Origin: Sulfuricurvum sp.
GTDB taxonomy: Bacteria; Campylobacterota; Campylobacteria; Campylobacterales; Sulfurimonadaceae
NCBI GenBank assembly: GCA_020721585.1
Contig: DYMK01000005.1
Location: 62,001 to 126,000 of the forward strand
DNA length: 64,000 bases
Direction of reading: 5' to 3'
The notes under the pieces were generated by a model. It did not search any database. It was not told the origin of the DNA and was given only the letters and a program-made list of their open reading frames with translations. The position numbers were made by a program, and so were the translations under genes. Below are positions 11,744 to 56,922 of the stretch, piece by piece. The first letter of the stretch is position 1. Each line of letters begins with the position of its first letter.

Positions 11744-11796
11744 GTCATTGCGGGCTTGATCCGCAATCTAAGATCCTGAATCAAGTTCAGGATGAC
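11744..11796. repeat. Modular palindromic repeat, two-hairpin type
   Basis: Two adjacent hairpins: ATTGCGG/CCGCAAT (11747-11766) and ATCCTGAA/TTCAGGAT (11773-11793). The whole unit begins GTCAT and ends ATGAC. It is the same element as 41832-41885 in opposite orientation. Lying 11 bases after infA, the stems could serve as terminator or mRNA-stabilising structure, though there is no T-run. Confidence 0.8.
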
Positions 11797-27592: not shown

Positions 27593-27618
27593 GTCATTCC
27601 CGCGAAGGCGGGAATCCA
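27593..27618. repeat. Palindromic repeat, single GTCATTCCCGC-type unit
   Basis: GTCATTCCCGCG, AAG, then CGGGAATCCA: a stem of ATTCCCGC/GCGGGAAT. It is the same unit as at 32307, 52378 and 57976. It sits just after leuA and could act as a 3' stem. Confidence 0.8.
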
Positions 27619-31994: not shown

Positions 31995-33973
31995 ATCTTT
32001 TTTATTATACCATCGCCCTTTTGGGCAATCCTCTTGATCCGCTTACCTATTCATCGACACGGCAACTTCCTATTGGGAGTAAGGTTGGTGTGACGTTATC
32101 CCATCGGTCATGCGAGGGTGTTATCCTTTCTGACGTGGAAAAACCCTTTTTTCAAACACAACCTATCGTTGAAGCATTATCGTTTACGTATAGTGATTTT
32201 CAACGTAAAATTTCCCATTTTGTGGCAACCTATTATGGGTGTTCGATGGGGGAAGCGTTAACGCTTTTTGTGCCGTTTCCCAATGATGTTGTGAATAATG
32301 AAATCCGTCATTCCCGCGAAGGCGGGAATCCAGCTAAACTTGTTCCTGCTGAGGAGAATGGGAACGGTGATGCTAATGAACAGGAGCATTCCCACTCAAC
32401 AGAGTGGGAACGAGCGAAAACATCAAGTCAGATTCCCACCTACGCGGGAATGACCATTGATATTACCCTCTCCCCCACCCAAAATGAGGCATTGAATTTT
32501 CTCCGAAGTCATCCCCTTGCACTTCTTTTTGGGGATACGGGTGCGGGAAAAAGTGAAATTTACATGAAACGGATGGAAGAAATTCTTTGTGCGGGGAAAC
32601 GTGCGGTATTATTGTTACCCGAAATTGCCCTCACTCCCCAAATGGAATCCCGTTTTAAAGCCCATTTTGGAGAAGCGTTTGTGTTGTGGCACTCCAAAAT
32701 GACCCCAAAGCAAAAAACCCTCACCCTTGAAAAAATCCACACAGGAACAGCGCACATTATCGCAGGACCTCGCTCGGCACTTTTTTTACCGATTCACGAT
32801 ATGGGATTGATTATTGTCGATGAAGAACACGATGAGAGTTACAAATCCTCCTCCCGTCCCCGCTATCATGCTCGTGATATGGCGATCTACATGGGAAAAC
32901 TCCTCTCAATCCCTGTCATCTTGGGGAGTGCAACACCCAGCGTAACCAGTTACGCCAAAGTCCCTTTTTTCCGTTTACGGGGGGGATATTATCCCACCCA
33001 TCGAACGTTTGTCTTTGAACCTTCCCTCGAGACATTGAGTCCACTAATGGATGAGGCAGTAGCGCGAAATTATCATGCGGGTCATCAAGGGATCGTGTTT
33101 ATTCCCACCCGTGCCAATTTTAAAACCATGGTGTGCGATGGGTGTGGAACAACCCTTGAATGTCCCTTTTGCAGTGTGGGGATGTCGTTGCATAAAAATG
33201 CACGCGCGTTAAAATGCCACTATTGTAACTATACGGAGATGATCCCCTCGGTATGTCCCAAATGCCACAGTGGTCACCTAAGCTCCCTACGGTTGGGAAC
33301 CGCAGAAGCCTTAGCGCATTTTGAAACCACCCTTCCTGCCCTAAAAGTTCAACAATTTGATCGGGATGTCATCACGACCCAAACAAAACTCATTGACGTA
33401 CTCAAACGATTTAATCATCGAGAGATTGATCTCTTGGTCGGGACACAAATGCTCTCCAAAGGGCATGATTATCACGATATTGCCCTTGCGGTCGTGATGG
33501 GGATTGACCATCTTTTGGGACAAACCGATTATCGCGCGCGGGAAAAAGCGTTGTCCTTATTGCTCCAAATTGCGGGGCGAAGTGGTCGAAAACACGATTC
33601 GACCGTAATGGTTCAAAGTTTTAATGAATCTTTTTTTCGTCCCTATTTGGACGATTACGAACGTTTTTTGCAGGAAGAATTACGCCATCGACAAGGGCGT
33701 TATCCCCCCTATACCAAACTTGCCCGTTTACTCTTTGCCCATACCAATGGCACCAAAGCCAAAGCCCAAATGGACAGTGCTTTAGCGCATCTAAGAACCA
33801 TCGTCTCGGTGGAGATAGTGGGCTATGGGGCTTCGCCGATTGAAAAAATTGGTTCTAAATATCGGTTCCAAATTCTTTTGCGTAGCCTTAAAAGCACCGA
33901 TGTGATTCGCGCCATTAAGGCCATCAAACCCCCTATCATGGAAATCGATATGGACCCCATCGAGTTTACGTAA
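31991..33973 (+). CDS. priA: Primosomal replication restart helicase PriA, with in-frame palindromic insertion
   Basis: A 660-residue PriA that reloads the replicative helicase at stalled forks. The start is TTG 31991, overlapping the pilin stop (TTGA). The N-terminal 3'-end binding domain (LFYYTIALLGNPLDPLTYSS) leads to a helicase core with Walker A GDTGAGKSEIY, Walker B DEEHDESYKS, and eight zinc-binding cysteines from CDGCGTTLECPFC through CHYC to CPKC. Residues about 105-155 are not PriA-like. They are encoded by three palindromic repeat units (32307-32454), read as RHSREGGNP and, at the end, PTYAGMT. The frame is kept, so the protein is probably still functional with a longer linker between DNA-binding domain and helicase. 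Confidence 0.93.
   Translation: MNLFYYTIALLGNPLDPLTYSSTRQLPIGSKVGVTLSHRSCEGVILSDVEKPFFQTQPIVEALSFTYSDFQRKISHFVATYYGCSMGEALTLFVPFPNDVVNNEIRHSREGGNPAKLVPAEENGNGDANEQEHSHSTEWERAKTSSQIPTYAGMTIDITLSPTQNEALNFLRSHPLALLFGDTGAGKSEIYMKRMEEILCAGKRAVLLLPEIALTPQMESRFKAHFGEAFVLWHSKMTPKQKTLTLEKIHTGTAHIIAGPRSALFLPIHDMGLIIVDEEHDESYKSSSRPRYHARDMAIYMGKLLSIPVILGSATPSVTSYAKVPFFRLRGGYYPTHRTFVFEPSLETLSPLMDEAVARNYHAGHQGIVFIPTRANFKTMVCDGCGTTLECPFCSVGMSLHKNARALKCHYCNYTEMIPSVCPKCHSGHLSSLRLGTAEALAHFETTLPALKVQQFDRDVITTQTKLIDVLKRFNHREIDLLVGTQMLSKGHDYHDIALAVVMGIDHLLGQTDYRAREKALSLLLQIAGRSGRKHDSTVMVQSFNESFFRPYLDDYERFLQEELRHRQGRYPPYTKLARLLFAHTNGTKAKAQMDSALAHLRTIVSVEIVGYGASPIEKIGSKYRFQILLRSLKSTDVIRAIKAIKPPIMEIDMDPIEFT
32307..32454. 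repeat. Composite palindromic element inside priA
   Basis: Three hairpin units in 148 bp: 32307-32332 (GTCATTCCCGCG..), 32389-32410 (TTCCCACTC aaca GAGTGGGAA) and 32431-32454 (GATTCCCACC..GGGAATGAC). The outer units are in inverted orientation, so the element begins GTCAT and ends ATGAC like the intergenic copies. It is entirely open in the priA frame. Confidence 0.85.
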
Positions 33974-56745: not shown

Positions 56746-56820
56746 TGGCTCCGAATACTGGATTCGAACCAGTGACCAAGTGATTAACAGTCACCTACTC
56801 TACCGCTGAGCTAATTCGGA
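56746..56820 (-). tRNA. tRNA-Asn (anticodon GTT), copy 1
   Basis: On the minus strand the 75 bases start TCCGAATTAGCTCAGCGG and end with the encoded CCA. Arms: acceptor TCCGAAT/ATTCGGA, D arm GCTC, anticodon loop TGTTAAT, T arm ACTGG/CCAGT with TTCGAAT. The anticodon GTT reads Asn codons AAC and AAU. Confidence 0.95.
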
Positions 56821-56847: not shown

Positions 56848-56922
56848 TGGCTCCGAATACTGGATTCGAACCAGTGACCAAGTGATTAACAGTCACCTAC
56901 TCTACCGCTGAGCTAATTCGGA
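56848..56922 (-). tRNA. tRNA-Asn (anticodon GTT), copy 2
   Basis: Identical over all 75 bases to the copy at 56746-56820, with a 27-base spacer between. Being upstream in transcription order, it is probably cotranscribed with the other copy. The repeat suggests a recent tandem duplication or selection for dose. Confidence 0.95.

Follow-up and report, generated by a model that had tools for sequence, protein, structure and literature searches.

The window, a 64-kb stretch of a Sulfuricurvum genome of 2.29 Mb, contains priA, the gene for the replication restart helicase (Table 1); it also holds two identical tRNA-Asn genes in tandem (56746–56820 and 56848–56922). The priA product was identified by the NCBIfam models TIGR00595 (E = 2.6e-144) and NF004069 (above cut-off). 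The preliminary description of this DNA had reported repeats in the linker between the DNA-binding domain and the helicase core, with the catalytic and zinc motifs kept, and this was borne out by the 3'BD, DEAD helicase, Zn ribbon and PriA_C domains, all of which exceeded the Pfam cut-offs. The AlphaFold2 model had a mean pLDDT of 81 overall and values below 50 for residues 102–150, and PriA structures were its best Foldseek matches. One of the best full-coverage matches was E. coli PriA lacking its winged-helix domain (PDB 6dcr; TMq 0.78, TMt 0.81). In PriA of E. coli and Klebsiella a winged-helix domain lies between 3'BD and helicase (PMC4129139); the domain is absent from the window protein, so that the REP segment occupies its place. 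Both PriA and 6dcr thus lack the winged helix, but in the window protein the lack is natural and the place is taken by a REP-derived, predicted-disordered segment. An unusual divergence of this PriA was considered and set aside: none of the 38 PriA proteins compared within the genus is more divergent, but the radical SAM protein of the same genome ranks second of 24, so that it is probably the lineage that evolves fast and not PriA that is odd.

The repeats had been described as three hairpin units (32307–32332, 32389–32410 and 32431–32454) of one repeat element, translated within the open priA frame and adding about 50 residues. The three units and their translation (RHSREGGNP ... HSHSTEWER ... 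PTYAGMT) were confirmed; their number, their unity and the size of the gain had to be revised. A fourth, degenerate unit (32341–32366) dimerises with 32387–32414, and the insert consists of four palindromic units, two CGTC-type REPs surrounding a D-family dimer. The outer CGTC pair therefore stands, but a single family does not, as the middle units belong to a RAYT-type family (D). The in-frame gain is about 42 residues, the linker being 61 residues long versus 17–21 in repeat-free linkers.

Both CGTC-type units and the D dimer differ in how well they are kept. The head unit, ATTCCCGC-GAAG-GCGGGAAT-CCA, folds into an 8-bp stem beginning with AT, with a 4-nt loop and a CCA tail; its CGTC tag is intact and unpaired (32306–32309), and the tail unit, which reads GGTC instead, is 92% complementary to 32307–32330. 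The right arm of the dimer forms a DNA hairpin of −9.6 kcal/mol (z −4.8; D-stem 32389–32410), and the left arm on its own only a weak one. For the whole insert the RNA folding z-score was −7.3 relative to shuffles. Among the loci searched, only one other, the PriA linker of G019, has the D dimer with its spacer (GATGCTRATRAACAG); since the CGTC units are extra in the window lineage, the insert is layered.

Table 1. Features of the window insert and of related loci. Plain positions are those of the window; G, C and L numbers denote sampled genomes, contigs and loci.
Feature	Position or locus	Strand	Basis or remark
priA, replication restart helicase, 660 aa	31991–33973	+	TTG start overlaps stop of upstream pilin-like gene
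Codons of PriA residues 102–150, predicted disordered	32294–32440	+	AlphaFold2 pLDDT <50
CGTC-1 type REP, head: CGTC-ATTCCCGC-GAAG-GCGGGAAT-CCA, read RHSREGGNP	32306–32332	+	Identical copy at 27593–27618
Degenerate D-family unit, left arm of D dimer, read VPAEENGN	32341–32366	-	By-eye alignment with better-kept arm in PriA linker of G019
Spacer of D dimer, GATGCTAATGAACAG	32369–32383	+	Exact-pattern search of sampled loci
D-family unit CATTCCCACTCAACAGAGTGGGAACGAG, right arm, well kept, read HSHSTEWER	32387–32414	+	Four copies in own genome
CGTC-type REP, tail, degenerate tag and tail, read IPTYAGMT	32431–32454	-	Inverted-repeat pair search
RAYT genes (~179 aa) bracketed by D palindromes	L326, L327, L328, L329, L330, L332		
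B12-radical SAM protein, second recurrent in-frame REP site	G000:C17:50989-52554 (L238); L287-L316, L147		
RfbB with REP-encoded residues	L118:1117-2205, L163, L209, L216, L221		CGTC subfamilies differ by species

The insert DNA has 57 matches within the same genome, and the pattern GTCATTCC-N-GGAATCCA was matched 69 times, against 0 for the reversed control. As the preliminary description had stated, the units match repeats between genes elsewhere in the window: the six other copies (27593, 29139, 52378 and 57974; C-type at 11744 and 41861) are all intergenic. Over the whole genome, 6 of the 61 CGTC-A units examined lie convincingly inside genes, so that gene insertion is still exceptional. 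Across the sampled genomes the repeats were sorted into CGTC subfamilies A, C and E and the families B (CCGTTCGCCCTGAGC...), D and F (CGCCTACGCTAACGCTGAG...CTTCGGCAGAG). Family F occurs in PriA, a radical SAM gene and other loci (L011, L090, L292, L120, L140, L142 and L165). Of the 6 reading frames through an element, 3–6 are open. A distinct arrangement was seen in another species (G006:C63:3718-4148), where six GTCATTCC...GGAATCCA hairpins follow each other in direct orientation every ~81 bases; elsewhere the copies are dispersed.

The PriA linker was then compared over 41 Sulfuricurvum species genomes, mostly MAGs, in 39 of which it was readable. Palindromic repeats are present in the linker of 26 of these 39 species, G023 being an additional doubtful case, and 12 species have short, repeat-free linkers. 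Twenty-three linkers beat all 200 shuffles in their match to the repeat consensus, some consensus sequences having been derived from PriA linkers themselves, with the genome-wide counts as the independent evidence of dispersal. The rest of the 26 are G038, which has a strict unit, and two species with a family F repeat; G020 has this repeat in its radical SAM gene, and further sampled loci carry it too. The insert of the window is thus real, but the single insertion in one lineage that had been proposed is not an isolated case: the linker is filled in most of the genus, usually by another family. The inserted residues themselves are, as predicted, absent from PriA of other Sulfuricurvum species and of six Campylobacterota outgroups. 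No repeats were found in the six outgroup linkers that were scored, and none was seen in the other outgroups inspected.

The linker inserts vary in family (CGTC subfamilies, B, D and F), in orientation and in reading frame. Family A is read as RHSREGGNP in the genome of the window (G000), as RHSRVGGNP in G026 and as VIPAKAGIQ in G035 and G038; family B lies forward in G017, G008, G013 and G021 and reversed in G033 and G039. Eroded or partly deleted copies were found in G002, G012 and G010. On a tree calculated without the linker, parsimony required the insert type to change a minimum of 20 times, or 21 when family F is counted. Many inner branches of this tree are weak, but the differences between sister species do not hinge on these: G030 carries C and G002 an eroded B, for example, and the two are joined with a branch support of 99. 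G025 and G036 have an insert type in common, so that part of the history is vertical. PriA has a second position with in-frame inserts, the 3'BD loop just before IFIYS, where the same loop carries family C or D, one species each, in G003 and G019 (L035 and L013).

Strict units of four families lie in the priA linker of 19 of the 39 genomes (21 of 694 units). The expected number of such genomes is 0.03 under uniform placement and 0.28 if units were confined to intergenic DNA at an assumed intergenic fraction of 10%, for species that are not independent and search patterns that were picked after seeing priA. The sole strict family-A unit in the whole genome of G005 sits in priA. When frames without a stop over 300 aa or more were surveyed for one B and one C peptide, the frames containing them were priA nine times, the radical SAM gene twice, and two others whose repeat precedes the probable start. 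A search for an insertion-site preference yielded only a weak T-rich upstream signal. To our knowledge, multi-family turnover at one position of a core replication gene is new; the open-access literature searched contained no report of it for the PriA linker, and the REP-encoded peptide strings had no match in the papers searched.

PriA is not the only such site. A search for other proteins with REP-encoded strings, in the genome itself, as the preliminary description had suggested, and in its relatives, yielded a B12-radical SAM protein, RfbB and restriction-type enzymes. One loop of the radical SAM protein has empty 8-residue alleles in 14 and is filled in at least 11 of 27 species, by A, B (in both orientations), C or E repeats; more filled cases are present in G019, G027 and G040. 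In RfbB (dTDP-glucose 4,6-dehydratase) two loops are filled in 3 and 5 of 30 species. The genome of the window has further in-frame units in restriction-type enzymes and a 452-aa protein, some with 2–3 units (L105, L124, L244 and L109). Two candidates were discarded, Prs (L279) and a QueH-like gene (L188), since in both the coding sequence probably begins only downstream of the repeat. The PriA linker is the strongest among several in-frame REP sites.

With respect to mobility, D palindromes bracket RAYT genes in inverted orientation at six loci of five relatives (twice in G019, and in G040, G023, G031 and G022). The genome of the window has two genes above the cut-off of the NCBIfam model for REP-associated tyrosine transposases (NF047646), and the bracketed genes are of the same type as one that exceeds it; the RAYT gene at L333 in the window genome has D units only ~0.7 kb to one side. 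In the few cases available, D stems of the CACTC type go with YTARxI transposases and those of the CAAGCT type with FTAKEI. No A, B, C or E units were found to bracket the RAYT genes examined, and a cognate transposase for CGTC, B or other non-D families was looked for and not found. The ends of the D units read TGCATTCCC...GGGAACGAG and bear no GTAG tag, which keeps D out of the GTAG REPs. Judging from the flanking genes in relatives, D would be a RAYT-mobilised family. The inverted flanking of RAYT-type genes is as in RAYT/REP (REPtron) systems; D differs from these in its missing tag, in occurring also inside coding sequences and in a stem subtype that tracks the transposase subtype.

The likeness to Rickettsia palindromic elements, noted at the outset, turned out to be closer than claimed, because the outer units match CGTC-1, the family of R. 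conorii RPE-6. According to Di Nocera et al. (2013, PMC3733652), this family also includes Neisseria dRS3, and CGTC REPs in general have no dedicated transposase; intragenic CGTC and GTAG REPs are described there, many in replication and repair genes, same-site recurrence is noted only for recB of two Xanthomonas, and the main text does not mention priA. With CGTC-1 REPs the head unit shares the CGTC tag, the AT-starting 8-bp stem, the 4-nt loop and the CCA tail, and the window units are likewise dispersed, mostly intergenic, oppositely paired, sometimes intragenic and without a flanking transposase gene. Rickettsia elements (RPEs) lie in frame at solvent-exposed positions of conserved proteins, and different groups occupy similar sites in orthologs (PMC3767692). 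The PriA insert resembles RPE-1, -4, -6 and -7 in being in frame in a conserved gene with its domains intact. In contrast to the Rickettsia case, Sulfuricurvum is a free-living member of the Campylobacterota, the families are CGTC, B, D and F, one of them is RAYT-associated, and clean empty sites exist. Sulfuricurvum does not belong to the Rickettsiales: the insert behaves as RPEs do and has the CGTC superfamily in common with them, without being one itself.

Overall, the data make it probable that the window insert is a mobile REP stack, in frame in a permissive, disordered linker of PriA that serves as a recurrent landing site, with inserts being gained, eroded and replaced. REP elements would insert in frame between 3'BD and helicase core, where the disordered linker would tolerate them, and unrelated families would have been gained, eroded and replaced many times there and in a few similar loops. 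D units may be placed by RAYT-mediated single-strand transposition, and CGTC, B and F units may move by a route other than an identified transposase. As the elements are open in 3–6 of 6 frames, in-frame survival is likely, and frame-breaking insertions would be lost through purifying selection on PriA. We regard it as unlikely, if worth considering, that these places are true hot spots, to which unrelated REPs are targeted or at which they are selectively retained, as a standing source of replaceable linkers or regulatory hairpins.

In a different account, any REP that landed in the linker is kept because its mRNA or DNA hairpins, or the longer tether, tune the amount or activity of PriA. The occupancy well beyond expectation speaks for it, and since it is far above that of tolerance plus uniform insertion, passive tolerance alone is insufficient, and selection or strong targeting may play a part; the inserts in REP-poor genomes (such as the one in G005), the position of the linker in place of the winged-helix domain, and the REPs that Di Nocera et al. 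noted inside genes for replication and repair point to selection. However, peptide, frame, orientation and family are all unconserved, 12 species do without an insert, copies decay in three species, and the unrelated radical SAM enzyme and RfbB behave alike, which leaves such selection improbable. Selection for the sequence of the REP-encoded peptide is most unlikely, given that neither peptide nor frame nor orientation is conserved; this does not speak against selection for the hairpin or a longer tether.

Divergence of all present forms from a single ancient insertion in the ancestor of the genus would account for the presence of something in the linker of most species, for the type common to G025 and G036 and for the D spacer common to G019 and the window genome. 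The R. japonica study weighed hot spots against one diverged insertion, leaned to a common origin (the 'same origin' model, proposed for RPE-4, -6 and -7) and kept hot spots possible (PMC3767692), so that its authors left the choice open. In Sulfuricurvum such a single origin is very improbable: many inserts are intact, belong to unrelated families and have dispersed counterparts elsewhere in the genomes that carry them; both orientations occur; the sisters G030 and G002 differ; and at the radical SAM loop some alleles are cleanly empty. Unrelated families and clean empty sites allow independent insertion to be distinguished from divergence; together with the different orientations and frames they favour repeated insertion. 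Short-read misjoins at repeats, to which the predominance of MAGs would expose the analysis, or a priA pseudogene can hardly be the cause, because the same flanks and open frame recur in dozens of independent assemblies, a 2.36-Mb contig of G003 holds two units in priA, the helicase and zinc motifs are intact and every insert is in frame.

The recurrent landing of mobile REPs in the PriA linker means that junk-like repeat DNA would keep supplying new protein sequence there, and the proposal that a mobile repeat can create protein sequence in an essential-type enzyme is supported by the dispersal of the repeats and by relatives without the residues. On the question raised in Rickettsia, hot spots or a diverged ancestor, the Sulfuricurvum data favour repeated insertion. 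With its many species, and a candidate transposase for one family, Sulfuricurvum may allow one to measure how mobile repeats build new segments in core genes.
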